24,157 nt of DNA. Source: a virus. Positions 749-20,650 of the stretch are shown here, one piece after another (the stretch's first letter is position 1; each line of letters starts with the position of its first letter). A model generated the notes under the pieces. It was not told the DNA's origin and did no database searches. It was given only the letters and a program-made list of their open reading frames with translations. The DNA lies in IMG/VR virus record IMGVR_UViG_3300044675_001585, positions 1 through 24,157 of that record; one strand, given 5' to 3'. The position numbers were made by a program, and so were the translations under genes.

Positions 749-1714
749 TTAATCTTGAAACTTTGCCATTCTTTCGGCAAGCAATTCTTGAATCCTGTCA
801 TTATACGCCTTATCCTTTGCCGCTGGGCTTGTCGTTTGGTAAGCCGTGAATATCTTTGAGGCTTGTCCGTAAATGTTTGCTATGGTGAAATTTGCCCTCA
901 GCCATTTGTCATTCAAGTTCCACGCCGCTTGTATAAATACCTTCAATGCCTCAATGCTATCGCCCTGCCTGTCTATTTTGTCAATGTATTTCAGGAGGTT
1001 TGCCATTTGCCCTGCATCTTTTGGCATCATTATATAATGTCCATTTTGGTCAGTTGGATACGCGGCACCGGATAACGATTCAAAGGTTTGGCAAAACACG
1101 GAAAAGGCGGCGTAAGTGGGGGAGGGAATCTTTTCTTTTTCCTTTTTTTCGCAACTTTTTGCTTTTTCTTTTTCAACAAGGGAAACTAAGGTAAAAGGGT
1201 TGACTTTGGGGCTTTGGACATTTGTAAAATCATTTGTTTCAACTTTTGTGAAGTGCGAAAATTCCGAAGGATTTTCAAAAGATATATCTGTTGTATTCTC
1301 TGAAGTATTATCTGTTGTATTCTCTGTATTACATTCGTTAATTTCACCATTATACTTTTGTGATTTTAACTTATTCAGTTTAGTGGATTTCACTAACGTA
1401 TTTTCGTTAATTGCATTTATCAACAATGTGACGTTTATGTCATAATGTGTTTTCGCGGGAATGCCATGAAGGGTAATCATTATAAATGGAAGTTCCTTTA
1501 ATCTTGATTTTGCGCCTCTCAATTCATTTAATGATAACATTGTTTCCTCCATGATTTCTGCGTCACTTTTGTAAAACTTTCGACCTTTGACGGCTGAATA
1601 CCAATACATGATTTGACTTAAAAGTAATCCAGCGTTCACGCTTCCAGTTAACTTTATGTAAATTGGGTAAACCGCTATCGGTCTTTGATTAAGGTTTATT
1701 AAAATTTCTTTCAT
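749..1714 (-). CDS. Probable phage replication initiator / replisome organiser
   Basis: This is a 321-residue protein. Residues 1-100 look like the winged-helix N-terminus typical of phage replication proteins (AVYPIYIKLTGSVNAGLLLSQ, then a Tyr/Trp-rich segment and KSDAEIMEET). Residues 105-190 form a low-complexity linker rich in Asn, Thr, Glu and Lys, with ENTTD twice at an 8-residue period (131-135 and 139-143). Residues 195-321 form a second folded region. A winged-helix head, flexible linker and C-terminal domain fit an origin-binding initiator that recruits a helicase or loader. It lies between a ParB-domain gene and another replication-arm gene. The start codon is only 13 nt beyond a terminator hairpin, so expression probably depends on read-through. 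Exact family is uncertain. Confidence 0.68.
   Translation of the reverse strand: MKEILINLNQRPIAVYPIYIKLTGSVNAGLLLSQIMYWYSAVKGRKFYKSDAEIMEETMLSLNELRGAKSRLKELPFIMITLHGIPAKTHYDINVTLLINAINENTLVKSTKLNKLKSQKYNGEINECNTENTTDNTSENTTDISFENPSEFSHFTKVETNDFTNVQSPKVNPFTLVSLVEKEKAKSCEKKEKEKIPSPTYAAFSVFCQTFESLSGAAYPTDQNGHYIMMPKDAGQMANLLKYIDKIDRQGDSIEALKVFIQAAWNLNDKWLRANFTIANIYGQASKIFTAYQTTSPAAKDKAYNDRIQELLAERMAKFQD
1285..1326. repeat. Tandem direct repeat inside the replication gene linker
   Basis: The 18-base unit TATCTGTTGTATTCTCTG (+ strand) occurs at 1285-1302 and again, identically, at 1309-1326, a 24-base period that keeps the reading frame of the leftward gene. A second repeated word, TTCGTTAATT, lies nearby at 1334-1343 and 1403-1412. 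Repeats inside the linker of an initiator gene recall lambda, where the origin iterons lie inside gene O. An origin here is inference; simple expansion of a disordered linker would also explain the repeat. Confidence 0.7.
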
Positions 1715-1761: not shown

Positions 1762-2562
1762 TTATTTTTGTAAAATAATCCTTGTTTTACCCTGATTTCT
1801 AAAATTGTAAATATGCTCAATGTTTGCCATTATAACACTTACTGTCGAACTTCTCCTATGTTGGTCAGGGAATGTTGTAGCCTTTTTTACAAATTGATTT
1901 AAATTAAACTCAGGATTATTTATACATTTATTTAAACATCTTAAATATGCTACTATCATAACATCTGGAATGACTGTTTTAATTTTTCTTGCAGCATTAA
2001 AAATATATTCAGCTTTATTATTAGCATCGAATTTATAATATCCTTTTCTAATTAAATCGCCTTTTTCGCTATTGCCTTTTGAGTAAATATCTCTAATACT
2101 ATCAAGACTTGTTAATTCTGCGCAAATCATTAATCCAAAATCTTTATTAGCCTCGTAAAATTCTTGTAATCTAATATAATCTTTGTACCCTAAATCACAG
2201 TAACTTCTAATATAGTCTGCTATTGACCAGTTAGATTGATTTCTGTTTAGCGTTATAGCTGTTTTTAAATCGTAATTATTTACTTTATGATAGTAAATAA
2301 TTGAATTTAATTTTCTTGCAGCCATTAATCTGTGTTGACCGTCTATGACTTCGTAATTTTCGTTCACAATGATTGGCATTTGTAAAAATCCATTTTCCTC
2401 TATGGATTTTACCAATCTTTCAACATTTGCTAAATTAATGTTTCTATTTCCTTCCAGGATTTTAAAAACGCTAAGGTCAAGAGTTGAATGAATCTGTAAA
2501 TCATTTTGGCTCATCGCTGGTGTTGCGTCCGCCAAAATTGGATTTGATTGTAAATTTAACAT
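1762..2562 (-). CDS. ParB/Spo0J-like N-terminal-domain protein
   Basis: This 266-residue protein carries the ParB N-terminal signature: a helix with VKSIEENGF (51-59), then QMPIIV, then EVIDGQHRLMAARKL (71-85). DGQHR at 74-78 corresponds to the conserved nucleotide-binding GxHR-type motif. Residues 100-180 are helical and could hold a DNA-binding helix-turn-helix. Phage proteins of this kind act in partition, transcriptional control or as nucleases; the sequence does not decide between these. The gene is visibly more AT-rich than the rightward arm. Its 5' leader is highly structured (2595-2685), and a terminator follows its stop codon. I chose the ATG at 2562 because it gives a full domain. 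Confidence 0.8.
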   Translation of the reverse strand: MLNLQSNPILADATPAMSQNDLQIHSTLDLSVFKILEGNRNINLANVERLVKSIEENGFLQMPIIVNENYEVIDGQHRLMAARKLNSIIYYHKVNNYDLKTAITLNRNQSNWSIADYIRSYCDLGYKDYIRLQEFYEANKDFGLMICAELTSLDSIRDIYSKGNSEKGDLIRKGYYKFDANNKAEYIFNAARKIKTVIPDVMIVAYLRCLNKCINNPEFNLNQFVKKATTFPDQHRRSSTVSVIMANIEHIYNFRNQGKTRIILQK

Positions 2563-2572
2563 ATAAAAAAAT

Positions 2573-2650
2573 TTAAGAAATTACAAATAAAAATGCCCCA
2601 ATAGCTAGACATCTACCGGGGCAAGGTGAAACAAAAATAGTTTGTTTCAT
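2573..2650 (-). CDS. Possible 25-residue leader peptide ahead of the ParB gene
   Basis: A short leftward reading frame starts ATG at 2650-2648, preceded by AAAGGAG one base upstream, and ends TAA at 2575-2573, 10 nt before the ParB ATG. It would encode MKQTIFVSPC followed by a hydrophobic C-terminal half. The frame runs through the second and third leader hairpins, and the AAAGG of its would-be ribosome site is the 3' arm of the first hairpin. The layout looks like a translated attenuator. However, 25 codons can occur by chance and Bacteroidota rarely rely on Shine-Dalgarno pairing, so support is weak. Confidence 0.2.
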   Translation of the reverse strand: MKQTIFVSPCPGRCLAIGAFLFVIS

Positions 2651-2685
2651 GCTCCTTTGGGACGTTGTCTAGTCCGTTCCAAAGG
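2595..2685 (-). ncRNA. Structured leader RNA: three hairpins with complementary end loops
   Basis: Read leftward, three stem-loops follow in 91 nt. Hairpin 1 (2685-2654) has an 11-pair stem starting CCTTTGG with one A-C mismatch and a 10-nt loop. Hairpin 2 (2649-2627) pairs TGAAACAAA with TTTGTTTCA. Hairpin 3 (2622-2595) pairs GCCCCGGTAG with CTATTGGGGC (two G-U) around an 8-nt loop. Loop 1 contains CTAGACA and loop 3 contains TGTCTAG, which are perfect complements, so the ends could form a 7-bp kissing complex. Hairpin 3 is followed by ATTTTTATTTG, a weak terminator-like tail. A possible -7 element TATTTTG (2705-2699) would start transcription near the first hairpin. It lies 33 nt before the ParB ATG. 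I do not recognise it as a known riboswitch. Confidence 0.6.
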
Positions 2686-2709
2686 TTATGTAAATATACA
2701 AAATATTAA

Positions 2710-2865
2710 TTACTTTCCCCTTCTTTTTTTCCACGGCGGATTCCCCACGGCGCTTTGCATTTCCATGTATTTTACCACGGCTGGCGGTGTTTCGTATGTC
2801 ACAGACGGAAATTCATTTCCCTCTGTGAAAACCTTGTCCAATGCTGCCTTAATATAATTTGCCAT
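2710..2865 (-). CDS. 51-residue hypothetical protein
   Basis: This leftward ORF starts at ATG 2865-2863, four bases past the methyltransferase stop, with AGTAAAGGT just upstream, and encodes MANYIKAALDKVF and onward to a basic tail (WKKRRGK). A longer in-frame start inside the methyltransferase exists, but the internal ATG gives clean spacing. The N-terminal half looks like one amphipathic helix; a proline-rich middle (YETPPAVV) and a lysine/arginine end follow. No family is recognised. Tight coupling to the methyltransferase makes a shared transcript very likely. The C-terminal tail could bind nucleic acid, but that is a guess. Confidence 0.55.
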   Translation of the reverse strand: MANYIKAALDKVFTEGNEFPSVTYETPPAVVKYMEMQSAVGNPPWKKRRGK

Positions 2866-3519: not shown

Positions 3520-3613
3520 TACAAGGTCGGGAATCGAACCCGCTTGTGTACCGCTCAACGTTGGGTAGCTTGCGTACACGGTTAGCCCTGGCGATACCTT
3601 TCGCCACCTTGCT
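3520..3613 (-). tRNA. tRNA-like element C (no standard anticodon arm)
   Basis: Read leftward from 3613: GCAAGG pairs with CCTTGT at the 3' end, followed by T8-G9, a D arm GCGA/TCGC around AAGGTA-type loop, and a T arm with GCGGG, loop TTCGATT, CCCGA (one G-A mismatch). Between D and T arms lie 46-47 nt instead of about 23. They hold an extended hairpin GTGTAC/GTACAC rather than a 5-bp stem with a 7-nt loop, and I find no credible anticodon with U33. No CCA is encoded. A small hairpin (TTCCTG/CAGGAA, 3502-3517) follows immediately. It overlaps the rejected N-terminal extension of the methyltransferase frame. Confidence 0.55.
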
Positions 3614-3753
3614 TTTTACACCGTTCCATCCCTTTATCAACGCACGGTGCCAGCATTGCTCAACCTTCGGGTGGTAAGTTGTGGTACAATACAGACTTTA
3701 GAAATATTACCACCATCTATTTCACTCTAGTTTAATGTCTGCCATTTGTAGAG
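3614..3753. other. Spacer between tRNA-like elements C and B
   Basis: These 140 bases lie between two tRNA-like elements. I see no ORF longer than about 20 codons on the leftward strand, no clear promoter and no terminator. A 77-base spacer between B and A (3874-3950) is similarly empty, although GACGGCAAA occurs just upstream of both A and B, which may reflect duplication of the flank along with the element. Confidence 0.5.
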
Positions 3754-3873
3754 CAGCAAGGGCAGGATTCGAACCTGCATGAACGTTTTTCTTATCGTAC
3801 CGTAACTTAATCGGACACTTTCGATTCGCTACTATCGGAACTTTTTAGCGTCTACCAATTCCGCCACCTTGCT
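3754..3873 (-). tRNA. tRNA-like element B (Leu-type 5' half, expanded centre)
   Basis: Read leftward from 3873: AGCAAGG pairs perfectly with CCTTGCT, followed by TG and a D arm GCGGAATTGGTAGACGC that closely matches bacterial tRNA-Leu. The T arm is perfect: GCAGG, loop TTCGAAT, CCTGC. Between them are 69 nt, about double what a leucine tRNA needs for anticodon and long variable arms. I cannot place a 5-bp anticodon stem with a 7-nt loop; the best local stem is CGAT/ATCG with an 8-nt loop. It could be a degenerate tRNA-Leu, an interrupted tRNA or a tRNA mimic. No CCA is encoded. Confidence 0.6.
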
Positions 3874-3950
3874 AAATTTGCCGTCTGTCCGTGCTGTCAA
3901 TATGGATATTTTGTGTACAATTCAGGATTCTCATATTTCTACCTTAGTTG

Positions 3951-4023
3951 TAACAAGGGTGGGATTTGAACCCACAATGTCAGCCGCGGTCGCCGCTTTG
4001 CGTTACCCATCCGCCACCTTGTT
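3951..4023 (-). tRNA. tRNA-like element A (normal length, abnormal anticodon arm)
   Basis: Read leftward from 4023: AACAAGG pairs with CCTTGTT (7 of 7), then TG, a D arm GCGG...ACGC with GGGTAA in the loop, and a perfect T arm GTGGG, TTCAAAT, CCCAC. The total of 73 nt with discriminator A is right for a class I tRNA. The anticodon region AAGCGGCGACCGCGGCTGA is GC-rich, lacks any U at position 33, and pairs only as a 4-bp stem CGGC/GCTG (loop GACCGCG) or as competing short hairpins. A call of tRNA-Arg(CCG) is conceivable but poorly supported. It is the first element downstream of the leftward promoter. Confidence 0.6.
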
Positions 4024-4099
4024 AATTTGCAAGTGAAGGAATCTAATCTTCGTCTTTTTGCCGTCGCAAAACATTTTAACATTAAACTAACTTGCGCCA

Positions 4100-6404: not shown

Positions 6405-6613
6405 ACAAAGACGGACTTTTAATAACCATTGTAGATGAATGCTTGCAAAAGGCGCGGGAAATGCACATTGAAACAATGGACGAGTTTTCTCAATGGCTTG
6501 TAAAGGAAAAATACATTTTAAATTACCTTAACGGCAAATTGCAAAAGCCAAAAGATGAACAAAGACCAATGTCCAAACTTTACCAAATGTTTTTAAAAAG
6601 CAAGGAGGCATGA
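6401..6613 (+). CDS. 70-residue paralog of the upstream protein's C-terminus
   Basis: The protein matches the last ~60 residues of its upstream neighbour: IETMDEFSQWLVKEKYILNY against MEIMDNFSKWLVNNEWELNY, and MSKLYQMFLKSKEA against FSELYQLFLKSREA. It lacks the N-terminal beta-rich part. It starts and ends in ATGA overlaps, and its 3' end AAAGCAAGGAGGCATGA copies the upstream junction. A stand-alone domain next to a two-domain version suggests the helical module is the active or binding part. Function unknown. Confidence 0.65.
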   Translation: MNKDGLLITIVDECLQKAREMHIETMDEFSQWLVKEKYILNYLNGKLQKPKDEQRPMSKLYQMFLKSKEA

Positions 6614-7122
6614 TAATTGAAAAAAAGCAAATCGCCGATTTAATACCCGCGCCTTACAATCCACGGCAAAGCACGGCAAAGCAGGAAAAGCATTTGAAGG
6701 AAAGCCTTGAAAAGTTTGGCATGGTTGAACCGATTATTTACAACAAGCAAACGGGTTACATCGTCGGCGGTCATTTCCGTGTCCGTGAATTAAAGAAGCT
6801 TGGCATCAAGGAAATTGAATGTGTCATTGTTGATTTGAATGAGGCAGATGAAAAGGAATTGAACATACGATTGAACGCAAACACGGGGTCATGGGACTGG
6901 GACACCTTGGCGAACGATTGGGACGTGGTGGACTTGGAAGCGTGGGGGCTTGAGATACCGTTTTACGATGAAGAGGTGAAGGAGGAACAAAGCAAAGAGG
7001 AAGAGGAATTTAAAACTCTTGAATTAAACTTCAATGCTTGGGATTATAAAAACGTGGTTGCAAGGTTGAAACAAATAGACAGCAAGTCCCTTGAATCTGC
7101 ATTGATTAAGGCGCTTGAATAA
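6610..7122 (+). CDS. ParB-like nuclease-domain protein (second copy of fold)
   Basis: This 170-residue protein opens with the ParB/sulfiredoxin-like domain: IADLIPAPYNPRQ (8-20), HLKESLEKFGMVEPIIYN, then GYIVGGHFRVRELKKLG (49-65) with GGHFR as the conserved motif, and ECVIVDL. DEKELNIRLNANTGSWDWD follows, a pattern I know from phage ParB-domain proteins often fused or adjacent to DNA methylases. Here no methylase domain follows; the C-terminus is a Glu-rich acidic segment (122-137) and a short helix. It sits just before the packaging genes, so a role in packaging, genome segregation or regulation is possible. It is not closely similar to the leftward ParB-domain protein. Confidence 0.8.
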   Translation: MIIEKKQIADLIPAPYNPRQSTAKQEKHLKESLEKFGMVEPIIYNKQTGYIVGGHFRVRELKKLGIKEIECVIVDLNEADEKELNIRLNANTGSWDWDTLANDWDVVDLEAWGLEIPFYDEEVKEEQSKEEEEFKTLELNFNAWDYKNVVARLKQIDSKSLESALIKALE

Positions 7123-19267: not shown

Positions 19268-20650
19268 ATGACATACGCCGATTATCCAGATGCTGCAAAG
19301 AACAACGCACGACGCGCACTCGACCACAAAGAAAAGAATGGGTCAGACTGCGGAACGCTTGTCGGCTGGCAACGGGCAAATCAAATTGCCAATGGTGAAG
19401 GCTTATCGGAAGAAACGGTGCAACGTACTTATTCATTTTTAAGTCGCGCGGAAACGTATGACCAGGGCAAATACTTTGATGAAGATGGAAAAGAACAGTG
19501 TGGAAGCATCATGTTTGACGCATGGGGCGGAAGTGCTATGAAGGTTTGGGCGGAAGCAAAATACAAGGCGATACAAAAGGACAAAGAAAAAAACATGGCA
19601 AAAGTAAGTATAGATATTTTAGGGGAAATTTCGGAATCGGTTAATTCTTACAACTCAGTAAGAACCAAAATTAACCAGGCGAACGGGCAGCCAATTAATT
19701 TAACGATATCCTCAGGAGGTGGCAGCGTCACCGAGGGAATGGGTATTGCTGACTTAGTGGCTAATTACCCAGAAGAAACCACGGCAACAGGAATCGGCTT
19801 GGTAGCAAGCATTGCAACGGTTGTATTGTTGGCAGCGGATAATGTTAAAATGACGGAAAATGCTTTTATGATGATTCACCGACCTTGGAGTTACACGATG
19901 GGTAACGCCGACGAACTTGAGGCAACGGCTGAATTATTGGACAAAATGGAAGCAAAGTTACTTGACATTTACACGGCTTCGGTTATTAAACGCAAAGGAG
20001 ACCAAAAGAACCTAAAAGAAATTATTACAAATATGATGGCAGCTGAAACTTGGCTGACCGCTCAGGAAGCATTAGAATTTGGCTTCATTGATGAAATTGT
20101 TAAAGTTGGCGAAAAAAACATAGATATGTTACCGTTGCAAAATAGCCTAAACAAGTTCTTGAATGTACCTGCCGCATTATTAACAAACACAAAAAAAGAA
20201 GATGAAATGGGTAGTTCTATTTTAGAAAAAATCAAATCCCTTCTTAATAGCATAGACGAAACTCCACCCGTGGAAAATGTTATTGAGGAGGAGGAAAAAG
20301 TAATTGAGGAGCCTGAGATGGATGAAGTTGAAAAAGCTATTTCCATGTTAAAGGAAAAAGGTTACATTGTAATGTCACCAGACGAAATGGATGCCATTAA
20401 CTCAAAGCAAAAAGAGGAAATGGAATCCATGTACAAAAAAACCGATGAACAAAAGAACTCAATCAATGAAATTGAGGCGGTTCTTGAAACATTGGGAAAT
20501 GAATTGGTTGCACTCAGGGCGCAAGTAAAAAAAGGCGTTGGACTTCCTTCGGGCGGCTCAGCCCACGAAAAGGTTCAAGAAACAAAAGCGAAATCGAGTT
20601 ACTTTGATTCTTTCGCTTCATTAGTTCAAACTAAAATTTCACAAAGATAA
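19268..20650 (+). CDS. Head maturation protease: N-terminal phage domain, ClpP-like (S14) domain, scaffold-like tail
   Basis: The 460-residue protein has three parts. Residues 1-100 (AKNNARRALDHKEKNG, DCGTLVGWQRANQIANGEGLS, MFDAWGGSAMKVWAEAKYKA) form a domain I know from phage head-protease proteins. Residues 110-285 are ClpP-like: GGGSVTEG (150-157), catalytic Ser181 in LVASIAT, His204 in MMIHRP, and AAETWLTAQEALEFGFIDE (258-276). The ClpP aspartate is not at its usual place; this is common in phage relatives. Residues 305-460 are acidic and coiled coil, as in scaffolds. It processes or scaffolds the prohead. An internal ATG (19595, Met110) after an A-rich run could start a shorter protease. 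Confidence 0.85.
   Translation: MTYADYPDAAKNNARRALDHKEKNGSDCGTLVGWQRANQIANGEGLSEETVQRTYSFLSRAETYDQGKYFDEDGKEQCGSIMFDAWGGSAMKVWAEAKYKAIQKDKEKNMAKVSIDILGEISESVNSYNSVRTKINQANGQPINLTISSGGGSVTEGMGIADLVANYPEETTATGIGLVASIATVVLLAADNVKMTENAFMMIHRPWSYTMGNADELEATAELLDKMEAKLLDIYTASVIKRKGDQKNLKEIITNMMAAETWLTAQEALEFGFIDEIVKVGEKNIDMLPLQNSLNKFLNVPAALLTNTKKEDEMGSSILEKIKSLLNSIDETPPVENVIEEEEKVIEEPEMDEVEKAISMLKEKGYIVMSPDEMDAINSKQKEEMESMYKKTDEQKNSINEIEAVLETLGNELVALRAQVKKGVGLPSGGSAHEKVQETKAKSSYFDSFASLVQTKISQR

Follow-up and report, generated by a model that had tools for sequence, protein, structure and literature searches.

A three-hairpin phage RNA with covarying kissing loops and a terminator-like third hairpin, ahead of replication and DNA-modification genes

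Introduction

What is encoded in the short stretch ahead of the ParB-like gene of this virus, where three hairpins follow one another closely and the loops of the first and the third could pair perfectly? The window, meaning the whole stretch of DNA analysed here, is an IMG/VR virus record of 24,157 bases. The record is that of a tailed phage whose large terminase is closest to those of Riemerella phages (46% identity), so that the host is likely to belong to the Bacteroidota. An earlier note had read the hairpins as a leader that switches between a kissing fold and a terminator-like or ribosome-blocking one, possibly sensing ParB or a ligand. The genes that flank the hairpins are these:

1762 to 2562, minus strand: gene for a ParB-like protein of 266 aa (PHROG 12305, E 1.4e-28); other families stand here in relatives
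749 to 1714, minus strand: next gene of the operon, for an O-like replication initiator of 321 aa (PHROG 9773, E 1.3e-22)
2710 to 2865, minus strand: small upstream ORF of 51 aa (from the ORF list), ending just before the promoter; upstream genes differ among relatives

Experimental

Relatives were gathered from IMG/VR by a protein scan for the ParB-like gene, which gave 11 loci; by an exact pattern taken from the third hairpin (H3), which gave 4 loci; by a pattern of conserved stem letters without loop content, which gave 74 stretches; and by a pattern of letters of the first hairpin (H1) with two loop letters fixed, which gave 55 stretches. A covariance model, R1, was built on 13 sequences with the kissing pairs left out, and its E-values are rough. 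Alignment A4 holds 58 relatives fitted to the stems of R1, and its 55 distinct RNAs were used for column and pair counts; the fitting gives the stem counts an advantage that does not extend to the kissing pairs, which are absent from R1. Alignment A3, made with MAFFT, is independent of any model fit. All members of the RNA family are metagenomic virus contigs, several of them near-duplicates, and the scans are keyed on conserved stem letters, so that more diverged members would be missed.

Results

The minus strand from 2686 to 2584 encodes three hairpins in an RNA of about 95 nt, with the following parts:

2654 to 2685, minus strand: hairpin H1, from the fold; 7 of 11 pairs have changed on both sides among 55 distinct relatives
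2666 to 2672, minus strand: kissing word K1, CUAGACA, in the H1 loop; 7-nt complement of K3
2627 to 2649, minus strand: hairpin H2, from the fold; 99.1% of cells paired, 4 of 8 pairs changed on both sides
2595 to 2622, minus strand: hairpin H3, the predicted stem of an intrinsic terminator; 100% of cells paired, 8 of 9 pairs changed on both sides
2605 to 2611, minus strand: kissing word K3, UGUCUAG, in the H3 loop; kissing helix with 99.2% of cells paired, 6 of 7 pairs changed on both sides
2584 to 2594, minus strand: U tract of the terminator; four of its columns are U in all 55 distinct relatives

All three stem-loops described earlier are thus present, and the H1 and H3 loop words are perfect 7-nt complements. 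The leftward RNA has a folding energy of -39.7 kcal/mol, where shuffled sequences average -22.7 (z -5.0, with 0 of 200 shuffles as good). The rightward strand folds well too (z -4.6), and the leftward RNA is favoured by the U tract and, as the earlier note held, by the G-U pairs: in the leftward sense the stem cells of the relatives contain 113 G-U against 19 A-C. A short ORF starting from an ATG between H1 and H2 (AAAGGAGCATG) was considered and dropped, the ATG not being conserved among relatives.

Three hairpins are found at the ParB loci of other contigs, with loops that are often unlike those of the window yet complementary to each other, and on contigs L013 and L015 the RNA of the window stands ahead of different genes. 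R1 identified about 90 members, spread over 75 virus contigs of IMG/VR, which score at least 54 bits against at most 33 for all other matches. Rfam 15 has nothing above the gathering threshold over the leader region, the best matches at E <= 10 lying far under the gathering scores, which agrees with the earlier judgement that this is no described RNA class. A blastn comparison of the leader of the window and of a more typical member with 50,697 genomes of isolate phages returned nothing beyond chance matches; 15 stretches of GTDB genomes fitted a search pattern, but R1 matched none of them below E 0.1, so that no host or prophage copy was found; and neither Flavobacterium phage lillamy nor Riemerella phage RAP44 has a significant match to the RNA. 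A literature search that reached few subscription journals found no published description of the three-hairpin RNA.

The loop words of the relatives vary widely, in 14 versions, and complementarity is kept throughout. Loop pairing in A4 is Watson-Crick at 7 of 7 positions in 54 of the 58 relatives and at 6 of 7 in the other 4, with no G-U pair, and A3 agrees on the kissing pairs. The covariation score of the whole structure is 0.549, compared with 0.204 +/- 0.008 when partners are shuffled and 0.07-0.09 when they are slid. On a tree built without the loop columns the loop word changes at least 20 times. Close relatives catch such changes in pairs. L059 (2685) and L062 have one difference outside the loops, and within the loops G has become C on one side and C has become G on the other. 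Between L039 (1070) and L059 (4817) two loop bases have been substituted, each with a compensating change in the partner loop; beyond the loops, a single pair of the H3 stem is flipped and the H1 stem carries one more change. The three-hairpin structure with its H1-H3 kissing helix is strongly supported by these covarying stems and loops, and the pattern of compensatory change indicates that the loop contact is genuine.

Besides the U tract, only one unpaired column is at least 90% conserved among the 55 distinct RNAs. Certain paired letters, UUU/AAA in the H1 stem and CAA/UUG in the H2 stem, almost never change, which suggests a binding partner that reads them. An ideal straight kissing complex would span about 75-83 A, against a linker reach of 60-93 A, a borderline fit calculated with idealised helices, so that the tightest members would need a bend or a partner molecule. 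Where one genome carries two copies of the RNA the loop words differ, no more than chance would often give from the word frequencies, and orthogonality of the two words is therefore not claimed.

The promoter assigned to this RNA lies immediately upstream of H1:

2691 to 2698, minus strand: predicted promoter -7 box TATATTTA, consensus TAnnTTTG, with a predicted start at about 2686

Each of the 64 distinct upstream flanks has the motif TAnnTTT(G/A) at one fixed position shortly before H1, whereas 15% of shuffled flanks contain it anywhere in 40 nt. In Flavobacterium psychrophilum the sigma-A box spans -12 to -5 (PMC9723704), and a box so placed puts the start in the window at 2686, one base before H1 and upstream of 2654. 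With this predicted start, and with loops that vary yet stay complementary, the structure passes both of the refuting checks set in the earlier note. By its sequence the -7 box is that of a Bacteroidota-type, sigma-A-type promoter, from which transcription is predicted to begin at the base of H1. Between 2480 and 2900 the only terminator-like site is H3 together with its U-rich tail, in keeping with the terminator reading of the earlier note. Since the box occurs in all distinct flanks and the predicted start falls at the base of H1, the unit consists of promoter, three-hairpin RNA and terminator. A search for opposing promoters of the sigma-70 type found none in 2480-2900. In a more distant group (L103 and L137) a second terminator-like stretch (GGGCTTTTTTATTTTG) lies just upstream of the RNA, before the promoter, and the cassette in that group may for this reason be insulated from upstream transcription.

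The start codon of the ParB-like gene, at 2562, is 33 nt past the H3 stem, as had been noted. A co-oriented ORF likewise starts 1-22 nt past the U tract in every instance with downstream sequence (all but one). BLASTP clustering places these ORFs in eleven families, among them ParB-methyltransferases, DNA methylases, HNH/AP2 and HNH-helicase proteins, a DUF4326 protein, an HTH_36 protein, the ParB-like family of the window and O-like initiators. The upstream neighbours are as varied. The words CUAGACA and GUAGCAG each precede five families, and a single family follows many words; with words and families so freely combined, the cassette has been reshuffled by recombination. The link to ParB drawn in the earlier note does not survive this comparison, for the same RNA, sometimes with an identical loop word, precedes ten other gene families, and the range of genes found in its place shows the ParB gene to be incidental.

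Records near 40 kb in length carry one or two copies of the RNA. In the two-copy records examined, with one exception, the O-like initiator gene follows the second copy directly; in the exception (G007) both copies precede HNH/AP2 genes. In a near-identical 40 kb record (G001) the ParB-like gene comes first after the RNA, then the O-like gene and more ORFs on the same strand. The slot behind the RNA (in L013, L015, L017, L022, L037, L059 and others) holds exchangeable DNA-modification and HNH endonuclease genes, and looks as if it were an accessory-gene hot spot between the cassette and the replication initiator.

Elsewhere in the window a run of tRNA-like genes occupies 3524-4096 on the minus strand, upstream of a methyltransferase gene. 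The Rfam tRNA model matches 3951-4023, 4027-4096 and 3754-3873 (all minus), the last with about 50 extra internal bases, and a T-arm-like stretch at 3528-3542 may belong to a fourth such gene. A second ParB_N-domain gene, different from the first, lies at 6610-7122 (plus), just before the terminase genes, and a gene for a ClpP-like head maturation protease at 19268-20650 (plus) is part of the late gene block.

Discussion

The promoter box, hairpins, kissing helix, U tract and co-oriented gene are established by comparing sequences, and from them we infer how the locus might work. The best explanation, whose chances we would put at about even, is a phage regulatory cassette: a cis-acting leader whose kissing complex would decide how much transcription passes the leader's terminator and enters the replication operon, the leader being also the source of an sRNA. 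Transcription would start from the sigma-A-type promoter at the base of H1, and the resulting RNA would form its three hairpins and a 7-bp kissing helix from the H1 loop to the H3 loop, with H3 serving as an intrinsic terminator and the start codon of a gene for replication or DNA metabolism coming immediately after it. The short distance from the U tract to that gene leaves no room for another promoter, so that polymerase must pass H3; all transcription entering the operon would do so, and the RNA would be a gate in cis. H1, already folded, would kiss the nascent H3 and so alter the frequency with which RNA polymerase terminates; a phage or host factor may read the invariant paired letters of H1 and H2; and terminated RNA would accumulate as a stable sRNA.

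As to the proposed switch, the structured leader and the terminator-like H3 stand, but the mutually exclusive folds do not: the kissing contact is compatible with both stems, and all are kept together. Their joint conservation speaks against a simple either/or switch and argues for a kissing complex that would modulate the terminator or stabilise the terminated sRNA. The gate in cis has difficulties of its own, in that the loop words do not track the downstream gene and, terminator and kissing contact being retained together in the conserved fold, no antiterminator fold is visible in the sequence.

A possible, if doubtful, alternative is an independent sRNA gene whose product would act away from this locus, either on targets of host or phage or in complex with a protein, and for which the adjoining downstream gene would be a neighbour and not a target. 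Phage genes are tightly packed and co-oriented, so such a gene between two others would look alike. Promoter and terminator bracket exactly the structured RNA, there is no conservation past the terminator, and the cassette is reshuffled against its neighbours on both sides, all of which favours an independent sRNA. Against it, the cassette has never been seen without a co-oriented gene right behind it, and a terminator 1-22 nt ahead of a start codon must affect that gene.

It is rather improbable that regulation is homotypic and in trans, with terminated RNAs kissing the nascent loops of sister leaders and thereby sensing their own dosage and that of the phage genome, as in plasmid copy control. 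Any two copies of one such RNA can pair with each other, the two sides of the contact change together, the RNA sits before replication genes and intramolecular closure is borderline in ideal geometry; against this, no separate antisense RNA was found, as judged by opposing promoters of the sigma-70 type, and self-folding would compete. The same low chance attaches to the corollary that the RNA is a phage dosage sensor setting entry into the replication operon, with the loop word as a compatibility group among co-infecting phages. If true, this would resemble plasmid incompatibility through antisense RNA, but with one self-complementary RNA.

The hypervariable yet self-matching loop pairs and the borderline geometry would also suit a structural multimer like pRNA, formed by kissing between H1 of each molecule and H3 of its neighbour. 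That is very unlikely, given a locus with replication genes rather than terminase and a third hairpin that is a terminator. A riboswitch sensing a ligand or ParB is more unlikely still: the RNA is indeed a kissing-loop leader ahead of a gene, but it has almost no conserved unpaired nucleotides, nothing like an aptamer core, and eleven downstream gene families, so that the ligand sensing considered in the earlier note finds little footing. Equally hard to credit is a role of the inverted repeats as DNA only, as repressor operators or a replication origin, for although H1 and H2 are near-palindromes at and just after the start site and before replication genes, G-U exceeds A-C by 113 to 19 on one strand, loop-loop covariation across some 60 bases has no simple operator meaning, and promoter and terminator are conserved.

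The family is widespread in phages and absent from Rfam, and its evidence for a loop-loop contact is unusually clean, the contact having been rewritten in 14 words while the rest is nearly fixed. The natural word variants are ready-made compensatory mutants for asking whether a kissing complex can tune an intrinsic terminator, and could serve as matched regulatory parts. The RNA would place a point of control ahead of replication and DNA-modification genes in phages whose hosts are probably Bacteroidota.

Several known systems share part of this design. In the PR'-6S RNA-tR' region of phage lambda a strong promoter makes a short terminated RNA, with an operon behind the terminator, under control of the Q protein. 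The layout of promoter, short terminated RNA and operon past the terminator is the same, but there control is by Q, and no kissing structure is known in that RNA. The pRNA of phi29 has a covarying loop-loop contact that joins molecules into the intermolecular ring of the packaging motor. It too has two complementary loops in one RNA, but it belongs to a packaging motor, whereas the present RNA lies with replication genes and not with terminase. Small-molecule riboswitches differ in having a conserved unpaired binding core. GOLLD, ROOL and OLE RNAs have conserved loop contacts between RNA molecules (PMC12286853); GOLLD and ROOL are likewise phage RNAs with covarying loop-loop contacts, but much larger.

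In the pT181-type attenuator a kissing-hairpin contact in the leader before the replication gene controls termination (PMC3753616), and an intrinsic terminator lies between promoter and gene as here; pT181 uses a separate antisense RNA, whereas here both partners are loops of one RNA. The rep leaders of I-complex plasmids (IncI-alpha, IncB/O, IncK) have loop-loop contacts before replication genes and a separate antisense RNA (PMC10724649). They resemble this RNA in pairing variable loops in the leader of a replication gene, an O-like initiator being part of the operon here; they differ in that the partner hairpin blocks translation and is opened by pairing, while here the partner is a terminator and stems and loop pairing coexist. 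The repZ pseudoknot of these plasmids exerts its leader control at translation and is opposed by the antisense RNAI.

None of put, pT181, the I-complex leaders or GOLLD, ROOL and OLE is the same as this RNA, which is uncatalogued in Rfam. The put RNA of phage HK022 is a structured phage RNA of about 70 nt with two stem-loops that antiterminates downstream terminators through RNA polymerase (PMC9378689). Unlike the present RNA, with its three hairpins of which the third is a terminator, put has two stem-loops, no terminator of its own and no described kissing loops. Like it, put is a structured RNA just downstream of an early promoter (here the -7 box, with the start at H1), occurs in two related copies per genome and concerns terminators before early genes. 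By this analogy put is the nearest system in position and copy number.
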